Shown: piece by piece, positions 7,768-47,699 of the stretch
How the letters are laid out: every line of letters begins with the position of its first letter
Numbering within the stretch: the stretch's first letter is position 1
From: Parvibaculum sp.
GTDB taxonomy: Bacteria; Pseudomonadota; Alphaproteobacteria; Parvibaculales; Parvibaculaceae
Direction: 5' to 3'
Length of the DNA stretch: 64,000 nt
Assembly: GCA_017642695.1 (NCBI GenBank)
Contig: JAEPQD010000001.1
Location: 2,241,701 to 2,305,700 of the forward strand
Position numbers and translations under genes: made by a program
The notes under the pieces: model-generated
What the model was told of the DNA's origin: nothing
Databases searched by the model: none
What the model saw: only the letters and a program-made list of their open reading frames with translations

Positions 7768-9057
7768 ATGACCGACGCCGTTCACCCTCGCGCAAAGTCT
7801 GCCGGTAGAAGCCGCGCCTTCGGTGCCTTCGAATGGCTCCTTGCCATGCGCTATCTGCGCTCGCGCCGCCGCGAGGGCATCGTCTCCGTCATCGCGGGCA
7901 TCTCCTTCGCGGGCATCATGCTCGGCGTCGCCACCCTCATCATCGTCATGTCGGTGATGAACGGTTTCCGCACGGAACTTCTCTCGCGCATCCTCGGCGT
8001 GAACGGCCACATGTTCGTGCAGGGCGTCGGCACCAACATCACGGATTACGACACCATCGCCGCCCGCATCGCGAAGGTGCCGGGTGTTGTCTCCGTCGCG
8101 CCTCTGGTCGACGGTCAGGTCATGGTGCAGAGCGCACGCAATGCGGGGGGCGCGCTGGTGCGTGGCATGCGCGAGGCTGACCTGAAAAATCTCTCCATCG
8201 TTTCGGAAAGCGTCACCGCGGGGTCGCTCGACGGACTGGACGAAGGCGGCGTTGCGGTCGGTTCGCGCCTTGCCATGAATCTCGGCCTCACCGTCGGCGA
8301 CAACATCACGCTTCTTTCGCCGAAAGGCGCGATCACGCCCTTCGGCACCGCGCCCAAGGTTGGCTCCTTCCCGATCCGCGCGATCTTCGAGTTGGGCATG
8401 TCGGAATACGATGCGAGCTTTGTCTTCATGTCGCTCGACGAGGCGCGCGCCTTCTTCCGCACCTATGAAGGTGTCAGCGCCCTCGAAATCCGTCTCGCGA
8501 ACCCCGACCGCGTGAACGATTTCGTGAAGCCGGTTTCCGTTGCAGCCGGTCCCTGCTGCACGGCGACGACATGGCAGCAGCGCAACGAGAGCTTCTTTTC
8601 CGCGCTCCAGGTCGAGCGCAACGTCATGTTCCTGATCCTGACGCTGATCCTCATTGTCGCCTCGCTCAACATCATCTCCGGCCTCGTCATGCTGGTGAAG
8701 GACAAGGGCAGGGACATCGCGGTGCTCCGCACGATGGGCGCAACGCGCGGCGCCGTCATGCGCGCCTTCTTCATCTCCGGCGCGTCCATCGGTGTCGCGG
8801 GCACGCTGGCGGGGTTCGCGCTCGGCCTCGTCTTCTGCCTCAACATCGAGACCTTGCGGCAATGGCTGTCCGAACTGTCGGGCACCGAACTCTTCTCGCC
8901 GGAAGTCTATTTCCTGAGCCGCATGCCTGCCGAAGTCGACGCGAGCGAAGTCACAGCCGTCGTCCTGATGGCGCTCTTCCTCTCCTTCGCGGCCACGCTC
9001 TATCCCGCCTGGCGCGCCGCCTCGCTCGATCCGGTGGAGGCGCTGCGCTATGAGTGA
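7768..9057 (+). CDS. lolC: Lipoprotein-releasing ABC transporter permease (LolC/LolE family)
   Basis: Inner-membrane subunit of the LolCDE machine, which extracts outer-membrane lipoproteins and hands them to LolA. 429 residues. There is one membrane helix near 40-65, a large periplasmic domain (about 70-280), and three helices in a C-terminal FtsX-like domain that includes [13 protein letters not shown]. Many alphaproteobacteria have a single permease gene that serves as a homodimer (LolF type) in place of LolC plus LolE. Only one is visible here, so LolF is an alternative name. Its last 8 bases overlap lolD, which indicates translational coupling. Confidence 0.95.
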
Positions 9058-9763
9058 CGCCCCCGTTCTGTCCCTTCGCGGCATCACCCGCACCTACAAG
9101 CAGGGTGAGGAGGCGCTCCACATCTTCGCGGGAGCGGACCTCGATATTTGGGAGGGCCAGATCGTCGCGCTGGTGGGTCCCTCGGGTTCCGGCAAGTCTT
9201 CGCTGCTGCACATCGCGGGCCTGCTCGAAGCGCCGAACGAGGGCGAGGTCTGGATCGGTGGGCGCGATTGCGTGGCCTTGCCCGATGGAAAGCGCACCGC
9301 CGTCCGCCGCAGCGAGGTCGGCTTCGTCTACCAGTTCCACAATCTGCTGCCCGAATTCTCGGCGGTCGAGAATGTGATCCTGCCGCAGATGATCGCGGGC
9401 GTACCCCGCAAGGAAGCGCGCGTCTTCGCGATGGACCTTCTCGGGCGCATGGGGCTTGCCGAGCGCGCCGAGCACCGCCCGGCCGAGCTGTCGGGCGGCG
9501 AGCAGCAGCGCGTTGCCATCGCCCGCGCGCTCGCCAACCGCCCGGGCATCCTCTTCGCTGACGAGCCGACCGGCAACCTCGACCCGAAAACCTCGCGCAT
9601 GGTCTTCGCCGAGCTCCTCAACATCTGCCGCTCGCAAGGCGTCGCTGCCCTGATCGCGACCCACAATCTCGACCTCGCCAGCCACATGGACCGCGTCGTG
9701 CTCCTTCATGAAGGCAAGCTCCACGAAGGCACTGACATCGCCGCCGAATACCAGAGCCTCTAG
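9050..9763 (+). CDS. lolD: Lipoprotein-releasing ABC transporter ATPase
   Basis: ATPase that drives LolCDE-type lipoprotein release at the cytoplasmic face. 237 residues. Walker A is GPSGSGKSS (43-51), the Q-loop is in [14 protein letters not shown], the ABC signature is [15 protein letters not shown], and Walker B with the catalytic Glu is [12 protein letters not shown]. The H-loop is [18 protein letters not shown] after the Q-loop is typical of the LolD/MacB branch. The ATG lies inside the lolC end (overlap ATGAGTGA). A long inverted repeat follows and may end the operon. Confidence 0.97.
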
Positions 9764-11045: not shown

Positions 11046-11576
11046 TCAAGACGCGAGCCGGGCAAGTTCCGGCAAGGTGTCCCACACATAGCGCCGCCCG
11101 TGTATCTCTCCACCGCCGGGCGGTTCGGAGAACGCGCCGCCCCGGTCGCTCGCCCCGTGCTTGCGGTAGAAGTTCTGCGCCGGCTGGTTGTCGTGCAGCA
11201 CCCAGAGATAGAGCCCACAGTCCGGATAGGCCCTCCGGCACCATGCGGCCACCTCGGCGAGGAGGCCGGTCCCGATGCCGCTCTTCTGGTGCTCCGGCCG
11301 GACATGGATGTTGTCGAGAAGCGTTCCCCACCGCTCGTCATCCGCGCCATAGGCACAGGCGAAGCCGGCGGCATCGCCATCCTCCTCGGCAAGAACGACG
11401 AACTGGTTGGGGGCCGGAGAGGCGAGTCTTTCGCGCCAGACGCGGAGCCGGTCTCCGAAGACGTCTCCGTCGAGATATTCATCCCTGTAAGCGCCCCGGT
11501 AGTGGGTTCGCCAGCTTTCGGCGTGAAGCCGCGCGATGGTCTCTGCGTCCCGGCTGGTCGCCTCGCGGTACAGCAT
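11046..11576 (-). CDS. GNAT-family N-acetyltransferase
   Basis: 176 residues from the ATG at 11576, which has GGGGGAGG centred 7-12 bases upstream. An ATG two codons earlier (11582) sits too close to that site. The acetyl-CoA loop is visible as RPEHQKSGIGTGLL (93-106, Q-x-x-G-I-G-x-G). The N-terminus LYREATSRDAETIARLHAESW is typical of this fold. The C-terminal part includes LHDNQPAQNFYRKHGA, a common GNAT beta6-alpha4 segment. Substrate unknown. It diverges from the SOS-type small ORF at 11690 and may feel the same LexA site. Confidence 0.9.
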   Translation of the reverse strand: MLYREATSRDAETIARLHAESWRTHYRGAYRDEYLDGDVFGDRLRVWRERLASPAPNQFVVLAEEDGDAAGFACAYGADDERWGTLLDNIHVRPEHQKSGIGTGLLAEVAAWCRRAYPDCGLYLWVLHDNQPAQNFYRKHGASDRGGAFSEPPGGGEIHGRRYVWDTLPELARLAS

Positions 11577-11629
11577 GATCATCCTCCCCCGGCAGCCAGT
11601 ATAGGGTGGTCGCCCCTCTTGACAGATGA

Positions 11630-11670
11630 GAACATATAGGAAACATTCAACCTTGGAACATTTAGTGAAC
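11630..11670. promoter_or_regulatory. LexA (SOS) box, with a weaker second site upstream
   Basis: GAAC-ATTTAGT-GAAC at 11656-11670 is an exact match to the alphaproteobacterial LexA site (direct repeat GTTC-N7-GTTC on the other strand). A degenerate copy, GAAC-N7-AAAC, lies at 11630-11644. TTGACA at 11619-11624 could be the -35 element of a plus-strand promoter with a weak -10 near 11642-11647, so LexA would cover the start region. The closest relative in this window is the uvrA/ssb box at 47685. Confidence 0.8.
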
Positions 11671-11689
11671 ATTGGCCGGAGGGATCGAT

Positions 11690-11827
11690 ATGCGTGCACT
11701 TATGAGCAGGGCGTCGGAAGGCGAAGCGGGCAACTGGCTGAAGGATGTGGCGGCGCTCCTCTCCGTCGGCGCTTTCCTCTATGTCGCCGCTACCTGGGTG
11801 ACCATCGCCGAAGCGATGGTCGGCTGA
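11690..11827 (+). CDS. Small single-helix membrane protein, SOS-controlled candidate
   Basis: 45 residues, start ATG at 11690 preceded by a good ribosome site (GGAGG at 11678-11682). The polar N-terminus (MRALMSRASEGEAGNW) is followed by one hydrophobic helix (about 20-40, DVAALLSVGAFLYVAATWVT) and a short tail. The LexA box ends 19 bases upstream of the start codon. I know no named family for it. By analogy, Caulobacter SidA is a 29-residue membrane protein induced by LexA that blocks division, and the layout here is similar. The analogy is functional inference, with no claimed homology. It lies 179 bp upstream of dnaE on the same strand. Confidence 0.65.
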   Translation: MRALMSRASEGEAGNWLKDVAALLSVGAFLYVAATWVTIAEAMVG

Positions 11828-12005: not shown

Positions 12006-15000
12006 ATGGCCGACTCGATGCCCCAGTTCATCCATCTGCGTCTCCACTCCGCCTATTCGCTCCTTGAGGGCGCGATCCGGATCAAGGAGCTGCCCAAGCT
12101 CTGCCGCAAGGAAGGCATGCCGGCGGTCGCGCTTACCGACACGGCCAATCTCTTCGGTGCGCTGGAGTTTTCCGAGGTTCTGGCGGATGCCGGCATCCAG
12201 CCGATCACCGGCTGCACACTCCCCGTCCGTCTCGATGAGCCGGAGGAGCCCTCGCGTGGGCCCCTTCGCCGCGAGTCTGCGGGATCGCTCGCCCTTCTGG
12301 TGAAAGACGAGCGCGGCTACGAAAATCTGATGAAGCTTTCGAGCCTTGCCTTCCTCGAGCCGGAATCGGGCGAGTCGGCGCAGGTGCCGCTCGAGCGCGT
12401 CGAGCAATATTCGGAAGGTCTCATCTGCCTTACCGGAGGGCCGGACGGCATCGTCAACAGGCTGATCGAACAGGGCCAGAAGGATGCCGCAGAGGTTCTG
12501 CTTCTCCGCCTTCGCGGGATTTTCGGCGATCGCCTCTATGTCGAACTTCAGCGCCATGACATGCCACGCGAGCGTCAGGCCGAGGGCCCGCTTGTCGAGT
12601 TTGCCTACAAGCACGAATTGCCGCTGGTCGCGACCAACGAGCCCTTCTTCACCACCGAAGCCGAATACGAAGCCCATGACGCGCTGATCTGCATCGCCGA
12701 GGGCGCCTATGTCGTGCAGGCGGATCGACGCCGCCTCACCCCCGAGCATCGCTTCAAGAGCCAGACGGAGATGCTCGCGCTTTTCGCCGATCTCCCGGAA
12801 GCGACCGCCAATACGGTCGAGATCGCGCGCCGCTGCGCCTACCGTCCGCGCACCCGCAAACCCATCCTGCCGAAATTCGCCGCAGGCACCTCGGAAGCAG
12901 ACGAGCTTCGCCGCCAGGCGGAGGAGGGGCTCACTGCCCGCCTCGCCGAACTCGAAACCGTGGCTCCGGAAGAGGAATACCGCGAGCGCCTGCGCTTCGA
13001 ACTCGACGTCATCATCAAGATGGACTTCCCCGGCTACTTCCTGATCGTTGCCGATTTCATCAAATGGGCGAAGCAGCAGGGCATCCCCGTCGGCCCGGGC
13101 CGCGGTTCGGGCGCGGGCTCCGTCGTCGCCTGGGCGCTCACCATCACGGACCTCGATCCGCTTCGCTTCGGCCTCCTCTTCGAGCGCTTCCTCAACCCCG
13201 AACGCGTTTCGATGCCCGACTTCGATATCGATTTCTGCCAGGAGCGCCGCGACGAGGTGATCCGCTACGTGCAGGACCGCTACGGCGTCGACAAGGTCGC
13301 GCAGATCATCACCTTCGGAAAACTGCAGGCCCGTGCGGTGCTGCGCGATGTCGGCCGTGTCCTGCAGATGCCCTATGGCCAGGTCGACCGGCTCTGCAAG
13401 CTCGTGCCGAACAACCCGGCAAACCCCGTCACGCTGCGTCAGGCGATTGACGGTGAGCCGCGCCTTCAGGAGGAGCAGCGCAACGACGAGACCGTTGCGC
13501 GCCTCCTCGAAATCGGCGGCCGTCTCGAAGGGCTCTACCGTCATGCCTCGACCCACGCGGCGGGCGTGGTGATCGGCGACCGTCGGCTCGACGAACTGGT
13601 GCCGCTCTACCGCGATCCGCGGTCCGACATGCCCGTCACCCAGTTCAACATGAAATGGGTGGAACCGGCCGGCCTCGTGAAATTCGACTTTCTGGGATTG
13701 AAGACGCTCACTGTCGTCGACATGGCGGCGAAGCTGCTCGCGCGCCGCGGCATCGAGGTCGATCCGGAAAAGCTCCCGCTCGACGATGCGGGCACCTACG
13801 AGATGCTGACGCGCGGCGAGACGGTGGGTGTCTTCCAGCTTGAAAGTTCGGGCATGCGCGATCTCGTGCGTCAGGCGCGCCCCACCAACATCGAGGACAT
13901 CATCGCCCTTGTCGCCCTTTATCGGCCGGGCCCGATGGAGAACATCCCGAAATATCTCGCCTGCAAGCACGGGCGCGAAGATCCCGAATTCCTGCACGAG
14001 ACGATCGAACCGGTGGTCGAGGATACCTACGGTGTCATCATCTATCAGGAGCAGGTGATGCAGATCGCGCAGGTCTTCGCGGGCTACTCGCTCGGCGAAG
14101 CCGACCTGCTCCGCCGCGCGATGGGCAAGAAGATCAAGGCCGAGATGGACGCGCAGCGCGAGCGTTTCGTCACCGGCGCGGTCGAGCGCGGCGTCGAAAA
14201 GAAGCAGGCCGAGTTCGTTTTCGACCTCGTCGACAAGTTCGCGGGCTACGGCTTCAACAAGTCGCATTCCGCCTGCTACGCCGTCGTCGCCTACCAGACG
14301 GCCTGGCTGAAGGCGAACCATCCGGTCGAGTTCCTCGCCGCCTCAATGAGCTTCGACCTCAACAACACCGACAAGCTCGGCCTCTTCAAGCAGGAAGCCG
14401 AGCGCCTGGGCATCAAGGTCTCGCCGCCCTGCATCAACCGGTCGGAGGCGCTCTTCGGTGTCGCCGAGGGCGAAGTCCTCTACGCGCTTTCGGCCATCAA
14501 GAATGTCGGCCGTCAGGCGATGGAGCATCTTGTCGAATTGCGCAACGAAGGCGGCGCCTTCCGCGACCTCTTCGATTTCGCGCGGCGCATCAATCCGCGC
14601 CTGATCAACAAGCGGACCTTCGAAAATCTCGCCCGCGCAGGCGCCTTCGACGCGCTGAACCCGAACCGCGCCCAGGTGCTTGCCTCGGCCGACCTCTTGC
14701 TCGGCACTGCAAACGTCGCCGCGCAGGAGCGCGAGAGCCAGCAGGACAGCCTGTTCGGCGGCGACAGCGGTGTCGAGGCGGCGCAGCCCGTGCTTCCCGC
14801 CGTCGAGGCATGGACGCCGATGCAGCGTCTGACGGAGGAATTCAACGCTGTCGGTTTCTACCTCTCCGGCCATCCGCTCGACGACTATCGTGCCGAGCTG
14901 CAGCGCGCAGGCGTCGTCACCTATGCCGAACTCCTGAAGCGTACCAACAGCGCCGAAAAGATCGCGGGCACCGTCACCGCCCGTCAGGAACGCAAGTCCA

Positions 15001-15425
15001 AGAAGGGCAACCCCTTCGCCTTTCTCGGCCTGTCGGATCCGACCGGCCAGTTCGAGATCGTGGTCTTTTCCGAAGTCCTCAACAGCGCCCGCGACCTCAT
15101 GCAGCCGGGCAATGCCGTCGTCGTCGGCGTCGAGATCGACCGCACCGGCGAGGAAGTGAAGCTCCGCGCCCAGTCCATCCGCAGCGTCGACGACGCCGTC
15201 AAGGATACCGGCGCGGGATTGAAGATTTTCGTGGACACTCCCGAGCCCCTCGAAGCGGTAAGATCCCGTCTCGCCGAAAAGGGCAAGGGTTTGGTCTCGC
15301 TCGTGCTCATGGGCGAGGGCGGCAGGGAGGTCGAGATCAAGCTCAAGGAGCGTTACAAGGTGACGCCCCAGATCCGCGGCGCCATCAAGTCAGTCCCCGG
15401 CGTGGTCGAAATCCGCGAGATATGA
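12006..15425 (+). CDS. dnaE: DNA polymerase III alpha subunit
   Basis: Replicative DNA polymerase of the cytoplasmic holoenzyme. 1139 residues, close to the usual 1150-1170. Domains in order: PHP (about 1-280, opening FIHLRLHSAYSLLEG), palm with the catalytic pair in MPDFDIDF (Asp405 and Asp407, matching E. coli 401/403), thumb and fingers, the third acidic residue near VKFDFLGLKTL, helix-hairpin-helix around 835-900, and an OB domain (about 985-1070, RKSKKGNPFAFLGLSD). The start ATG at 12006 gives MADSMPQFIHL; an internal ATG at 12018 is also possible. The replicative DnaE1 identity follows from length and PHP sequence, with no ImuA/ImuB genes beside it. Confidence 0.97.
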   Translation: MADSMPQFIHLRLHSAYSLLEGAIRIKELPKLCRKEGMPAVALTDTANLFGALEFSEVLADAGIQPITGCTLPVRLDEPEEPSRGPLRRESAGSLALLVKDERGYENLMKLSSLAFLEPESGESAQVPLERVEQYSEGLICLTGGPDGIVNRLIEQGQKDAAEVLLLRLRGIFGDRLYVELQRHDMPRERQAEGPLVEFAYKHELPLVATNEPFFTTEAEYEAHDALICIAEGAYVVQADRRRLTPEHRFKSQTEMLALFADLPEATANTVEIARRCAYRPRTRKPILPKFAAGTSEADELRRQAEEGLTARLAELETVAPEEEYRERLRFELDVIIKMDFPGYFLIVADFIKWAKQQGIPVGPGRGSGAGSVVAWALTITDLDPLRFGLLFERFLNPERVSMPDFDIDFCQERRDEVIRYVQDRYGVDKVAQIITFGKLQARAVLRDVGRVLQMPYGQVDRLCKLVPNNPANPVTLRQAIDGEPRLQEEQRNDETVARLLEIGGRLEGLYRHASTHAAGVVIGDRRLDELVPLYRDPRSDMPVTQFNMKWVEPAGLVKFDFLGLKTLTVVDMAAKLLARRGIEVDPEKLPLDDAGTYEMLTRGETVGVFQLESSGMRDLVRQARPTNIEDIIALVALYRPGPMENIPKYLACKHGREDPEFLHETIEPVVEDTYGVIIYQEQVMQIAQVFAGYSLGEADLLRRAMGKKIKAEMDAQRERFVTGAVERGVEKKQAEFVFDLVDKFAGYGFNKSHSACYAVVAYQTAWLKANHPVEFLAASMSFDLNNTDKLGLFKQEAERLGIKVSPPCINRSEALFGVAEGEVLYALSAIKNVGRQAMEHLVELRNEGGAFRDLFDFARRINPRLINKRTFENLARAGAFDALNPNRAQVLASADLLLGTANVAAQERESQQDSLFGGDSGVEAAQPVLPAVEAWTPMQRLTEEFNAVGFYLSGHPLDDYRAELQRAGVVTYAELLKRTNSAEKIAGTVTARQERKSKKGNPFAFLGLSDPTGQFEIVVFSEVLNSARDLMQPGNAVVVGVEIDRTGEEVKLRAQSIRSVDDAVKDTGAGLKIFVDTPEPLEAVRSRLAEKGKGLVSLVLMGEGGREVEIKLKERYKVTPQIRGAIKSVPGVVEIREI

Positions 15426-47684: not shown

Positions 47685-47699
47685 GAACATAAACAGAAC
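47685..47699. promoter_or_regulatory. LexA (SOS) box between uvrA and ssb
   Basis: GAAC-ATAAACA-GAAC, an exact match to the alphaproteobacterial LexA direct repeat. It is 186 bases upstream of the uvrA start and 100 upstream of ssb. The sequence closely resembles the box at 11656-11670 (both GAACAT...GAACATT). Confidence 0.85.

Follow-up and report, generated by a model that had tools for sequence, protein, structure and literature searches.

SidA of Caulobacter crescentus is the closest described counterpart of the gene analyzed here. According to passages in PMC4211646 and PMC12700426, it is a 29-residue inner-membrane protein under LexA control that inhibits division via FtsW, leaving the Z ring in place and blocking a late step, and a lexA mutant no longer filaments once sidA is deleted. 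DidA, also from Caulobacter, can be likened to the present gene product by description, as a small damage-induced membrane inhibitor of division; it is SOS independent (DriD) and binds FtsN (a passage in PMC4211646). The same source describes two suppressor alleles of ftsW, of which A31K relieves the action of SidA but not of DidA and A246T relieves both.

Damage-induced small membrane proteins acting on late division further include YneA, SosA, and ChiZ, which are again comparable by description. These proteins come from other phyla, and LysM domains are found in YneA and ChiZ. The helix of YneA mediates its binding to FtsW; in low-confidence models, YneA, SosA, and ChiZ as well as SidA sit on FtsW TM7, with SidA on the other side (passages in PMC13396833).

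SulA is poorly conserved outside Enterobacteriaceae (a passage in PMC6851548). The titles, abstract openings, and selected passages of the open literature that were covered hold no account of SidA outside Caulobacter and no SidA-dnaE link; the original SidA paper (Modell 2011), which lies outside this scope, may speak of conservation. With SulA poorly conserved and SidA figuring in these sources as a Caulobacter protein alone, other alphaproteobacteria would thus be left, as far as these sources go, without a candidate gene for an SOS division stop.

The DNA analyzed here is a 64-kb stretch (the window) from a Parvibaculum genome, a genus that NCBI taxonomy assigns to Hyphomicrobiales, Parvibaculaceae. 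It contains a small open reading frame (ORF) whose product has in common with SidA (curated model NF033228) a single short hydrophobic helix, the motif (K/R)(D/E)xxALxSVxxFxW, a position before dnaE with lolD upstream, and, by all indications in the promoter, LexA control (Table 1). Unlike SidA, the protein is 45 residues long, its N-terminal tail exceeding that of SidA by about 13; its family has a tandem operator at fixed spacing and an unshared C-terminal W..IAE part, and it scores below the curated cutoff.

Table 1. Features of the locus, in window coordinates
Feature	Position	Strand	Basis or remark
lolCE permease gene	7768-9057	+	TIGR02212, 473.2 bits, over cutoff; syntenic anchor
lolD	9050-9763	+	Best match TIGR02211 (LolD), 243.6 bits, below cutoff of 307.75; follows lolCE gene; upstream anchor
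GNAT acetyltransferase gene	11046-11576	-	Divergent
Presumed -35 element TTGACA	11619-11624	+	Sequence
Upstream LexA operator GAACATATAGGAAAC	11630-11644	+	One mismatch; 5 bases past -35 hexamer
Downstream LexA operator GAACATTTAGTGAAC	11656-11670	+	Perfect; 19 bases ahead of ATG
Ribosome-binding site GGAGGG	11678-11683	+	Sequence
Small membrane-protein ORF	11690-11827	+	ATG start, 45 codons plus TGA, 45 amino acids
Predicted transmembrane helix, residues 22-40	11753-11809	+	Kyte-Doolittle mean of 1.87 over 19 residues
dnaE, DNA polymerase III alpha subunit	12006-15425	+	NF004226, 1494 bits, over cutoff; downstream syntenic anchor

The small gene and its tandem operator

A preliminary description of this DNA had reported the ORF with a ribosome-binding site and one hydrophobic helix, and re-checking of the coordinates confirmed all of these elements. 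Conservation strongly supports a small, single-helix protein, for which hydropathy predicts a place in the membrane. A W-x-K-D motif occupies residues 16 to 19, immediately N-terminal to the helix, and M1, W16, D19, A21, L23, and W36 are invariant across 27 family sequences. Searches of Pfam and PHROGs gave no convincing match (best E values, 0.017 and 0.028, respectively).

Conservation of the ORF and its box, which the preliminary description had put forward as a check, is borne out in relatives. Searching with the single protein recovered homologues in 28 of 116 relatives. A profile, A1, built from 27 of these 28 sequences (L017, whose contig ends inside the ORF, was omitted), found a homologue in 37 of the 40 genomes of the order, covering all five genera; both counts include the genome under study. 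A perfect GAAC-N7-GAAC lies upstream in all 37 genomes with the ORF, although in one of them it is 175 bases before the match. The mutation spectrum is likewise codon-like. In a comparison of 23 sequences of the genus, from which L017 and the four loci from other genera were excluded, pairs of equal length gave a median pN/pS of 0.54 for the reading frame versus 0.79 and 1.55 for the two shifted ones, and pN exceeded pS in only 10 of 253 pairs. In the 20 closest pairs, pS is always above pN, as exemplified by L022 and L023, which differ by 8 synonymous changes and 1 other change. By this pattern of substitution, the frame evolves like coding DNA, with purifying selection on the predicted peptide.

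The exact LexA box noted earlier, 19 bases upstream of the start codon, was verified in position and sequence. Nevertheless, the window contains 2 perfect boxes against 2.18 expected, so that by count alone a perfect box is at chance level and carries little weight; the weight rests instead on conservation. SOS control, which the preliminary description had based on motif identity with the uvrA/ssb box, gains strong support from conservation. What had been called a weaker second site at 11630 is indeed present, with one mismatch, but is better described as one half of a conserved tandem operator. When one mismatch is allowed in its last half site, an upstream box is recognized in 26 of 28 loci, often with that mismatch, and it stands 26 bp from its downstream partner in 23 of these loci and 25 bp from it in three. 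The other two loci belong to another genus and have a single box 11 bp after TTGAC, which is the place that the upstream box takes elsewhere. In 25 of 28 loci, 36 to 38 bp separate the first TTGAC from the last perfect box that follows it; in L011, the distance is 45 bp, with a second TTGAC at 38 bp. Within its own 3.6-Mb genome, the tandem pattern with 26-bp spacing occurs once, at the promoter of the ORF. The genome also has lexA, and this gene carries its own box (GAACCAAACTAGAAC) behind a TTGACA. A consensus -10 element was not found on the plus strand of the ORF promoter. Taken from sequence comparison, LexA control of the 45-residue ORF is strongly supported.

Two other boxes deserve mention. 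The second perfect LexA box of the window (47685-47699) lies between divergent uvrA (minus strand) and ssb (plus strand), both named by eye, and it likely serves uvrA, ssb, or both. Also, in genus g4, a second GAAC-N7-GAAC is found inside the coding sequence of the SidA-like ORF (L109:1113 and L110:1116).

Sequence kinship with SidA

The preliminary description compared the ORF with SidA while seeing no sequence family for it. The comparison was right, and with a sequence family and a shared genomic address, the likeness is closer than was first supposed; the view that no family is to be seen was a mistake. In a profile-profile comparison with 25 distinct SidA sequences, which derive from 30 loci over the SidA cutoff and of which some are cut at the match end, A1 reached a probability of 83.9, a score of 24.7, and an E value of 7.8e-6 for one comparison. 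This score is above all shuffled and natural-helix controls: the best of 100 whole-column shuffles scored 17.4, the best of 100 in-helix shuffles scored 20.4, and the best of 62 hydrophobic segments, drawn from long reading frames of the window, scored 14.5. Against A3, a profile of three sequences of SidA's family, A1 reached a probability of 92.0 and a score of 28.7 (best shuffles, 19.7 and 26.4), and two modes of shuffling, with 200 rounds each, never attained that score; the 26.4 came from shuffling the helix only, with the flanks kept. With the SidA of genome G391 alone, A1 gave only a moderate match, at a probability of 50.5 and a score of 19.8 (13.6 and 14.6 for the best shuffles), and the identity of the window protein to that SidA is 17%. 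The part most like SidA is the collar plus the first part of the helix, residues 15 to 38. As judged from these profiles, the relation to the wider SidA group goes beyond helix composition.

The curated SidA model NF033228 (cutoff, 35 bits) was over its cutoff in none of the 40 genomes of the order and gave no hit to the window protein, and it weakly matched 2 of 27 family members (best E value, 0.0073). Because this 29-position model also responds weakly in Escherichia coli and Bacillus subtilis at an E value of 0.05, such weak hits count little. In a sample of the class, 1 of 385 genomes was over the SidA cutoff, namely, G391 (41.9 bits), whose SidA sits between lolD and dnaE. A genome from the same family, G314, was matched by A1 (E = 0.006) and, below the cutoff, by the SidA model (E = 0.001 for the genome and 3.9e-5 for the protein); the ORF concerned lies before dnaE and behind two boxes. 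Within that family, 61 of 99 genomes were over the SidA cutoff, and 83 of 99 matched at an E value no higher than 0.05, where E. coli and B. subtilis respond too.

The address is shared as well. Among 30 over-cutoff SidA loci examined, dnaE is directly downstream in all 30, lolD is upstream within the fetched stretch in 17, and a perfect box is present within 150 bases in 21. The nine SidA loci that lack one at this distance from the start are L224 to L229, L239, L240, and L243.

The slot before dnaE across alphaproteobacteria

The 700 bases before dnaE were scanned in 99 regions from 64 family codes (30 loci plus 69 regions); since these regions come from listed places with the DnaE most like that of the window, the share of occupied slots should not be read as an estimate for the class. 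Perfect boxes oriented like dnaE were found in 21 loci from 10 families, and oppositely oriented ones were found in 4. By comparison, 100 dinucleotide shuffles of the 99 regions gave means of 1.04 and 0.89, respectively, with a maximum of 4 each (for L083, the shuffles used a stretch inside dnaE; the observed counts are unchanged with the correct stretch). In 20 of the 21 box loci, an ATG ORF of 27 to 60 codons with a hydrophobic stretch starts at most 100 bases from the box, while the same test succeeded at 26 of 1,638 matched positions in box-free loci. In the remaining box locus, L079, the family protein is present with another start codon. A hydrophobic stretch was defined as a mean hydropathy of at least 1.3 over 19 residues, a threshold picked after the values were known; other thresholds gave 20 of 21 box loci versus 46 of the 1,638 controls (1.0), 17 of 21 versus 26 (1.5), and 15 of 21 versus 20 (1.6).

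Sequence kinship of the occupants to A1 is uneven. Real scores were above all 40 of their own shuffles for the tested occupants from families f4, f121, f82 (one of two types), f126 (two), f91, and f57 and, by a small margin, f70. For f41, f123, f116, and G403 of f82, kinship to A1 was not shown, as 3, 1, 1, and 10 of 40 shuffles, respectively, reached the real score. Synteny extends upstream: of 22 such slot loci examined, among them that of the window, 19 have lolD in the stretch that was fetched. L216 of f91 shows the order lolD, ORF with tandem boxes, dnaE. In two f126 genomes (L214 and L215), the SidA-like ORF comes after lolD and is followed by a different gene, and dnaE sits on a different contig; the LexA box upstream of the ORF looks degenerate in both, with the second half site changed.

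A combined profile, A4, identified 25 places; six of them are not represented among the rows of A4, not even by a near copy. In context, three of these six are SidA-like: G330 has tandem boxes, and G267 and G350 have the ORF after lolD, with boxes that are degenerate by eye. The other three (G391:C2, G109, and the second place in G032) are not SidA-like in context. A gammaproteobacterial match, L195, was taken as false: the reading frame around it is long and, by eye, SecY-like, and it has no box, dnaE, or lolD.

Together with a LexA box, the address lolD, small ORF, dnaE gives candidates in twelve family codes: the ten above plus f63 and f91, where f63 is presumably Caulobacteraceae, judging from the SidA control in Caulobacter vibrioides. 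SidA is probably an old alphaproteobacterial locus, which would be a new view of this protein. We lean toward the further proposal that an SOS division brake of the SidA kind was ancestral to Alphaproteobacteria and has kept one address, between lolD and dnaE, while its sequence drifted almost beyond recognition; in f41, f123, and f116, the occupant would be recognizable by position, operator, and helix alone.

Proposed function and other readings

We consider it likely that the ORF is a divergent sidA orthologue whose product stops septation during the SOS response, probably via FtsW; the division role is drawn from homology to SidA. Several observations count against orthology: the missed curated cutoff, the 17% identity and moderate match to the G391 SidA, the longer tail, the nine SidA loci lacking a perfect box nearby, and the negative result for a consensus -10 element. 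The gene and its operators with their conservation, the hydrophobic helix, the profile kinship to SidA, and the common address are observed here; induction by LexA cleavage, the position of the transcription start, the topology, the FtsW target, and the arrest of division are what we infer for this locus, as follows. LexA bound to two operators, one just behind the -35 element and one near the presumed transcription start, would silence the ORF. Once RecA filaments triggered the cleavage of LexA, the promoter would fire, and a 45-residue inner-membrane peptide would be made. The collar, W-(L/V)-(K/Q)-D-(V/I)-A-A-L, would lie at the cytoplasmic face, with the helix entering the membrane. The peptide might then bind the late divisome, most likely FtsW, and keep septal wall synthesis shut off until the SOS signal declines with repair. 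Residues 15 to 38 would be a plausible contact surface, and the longer N-terminal tail may tune stability or localization.

TisB and DinQ offer a different model, being LexA-controlled single-helix peptides. They are described as membrane toxins with antisense RNA control. A peptide of that kind would slow growth by disturbing the membrane, with division arrest as a secondary effect, and the size class, single helix, and LexA control of the window protein would suit it. Profile kinship and a common address with SidA argue against this reading, which we regard as unlikely. It is also conceivable, albeit quite improbable in our judgment, that the boxes serve dnaE and that the ORF has no role beyond that of a leader peptide or passenger on the dnaE transcript. 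dnaE is the next gene in 24 of the 28 homologue loci (of the remainder, L012 and L017 break off too soon, and L008 and L019 carry different genes at that point), and no terminator-like site was found between the ORF and dnaE in the window, so that read-through into dnaE would be possible. Against a passenger role stands the selection acting on the peptide. Moreover, box and ORF are kept in L008 and L019, which have no dnaE within the roughly 1.5 kb fetched downstream, and L214 and L215 retain the SidA-like ORF after lolD with dnaE on a separate contig, although their box is degenerate. Under the SidA-like reading, a division brake ahead of the gene for the replicative polymerase raises the question of whether SOS reaches dnaE via read-through. 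In the usual dnaE position, L008 has a ParE-like reading frame and L019 a DUF262-like one, both named by eye.

Finally, the boxes might belong to the divergent acetyltransferase gene, on whose side a minus-strand promoter-like site (11625-11598) has 9 of 12 matches. An acetyltransferase homologue was found in only 1 of the 28 homologue loci, the window's own, whereas boxes and ORF are present in all 28, indicating that the boxes go together with the ORF rather than with the gene upstream of it. The acetyltransferase was therefore rejected as the target of the boxes, a role that we consider highly improbable. Because the promoter-like site overlaps the TTGACA of the ORF, LexA might affect the acetyltransferase in this genome too.
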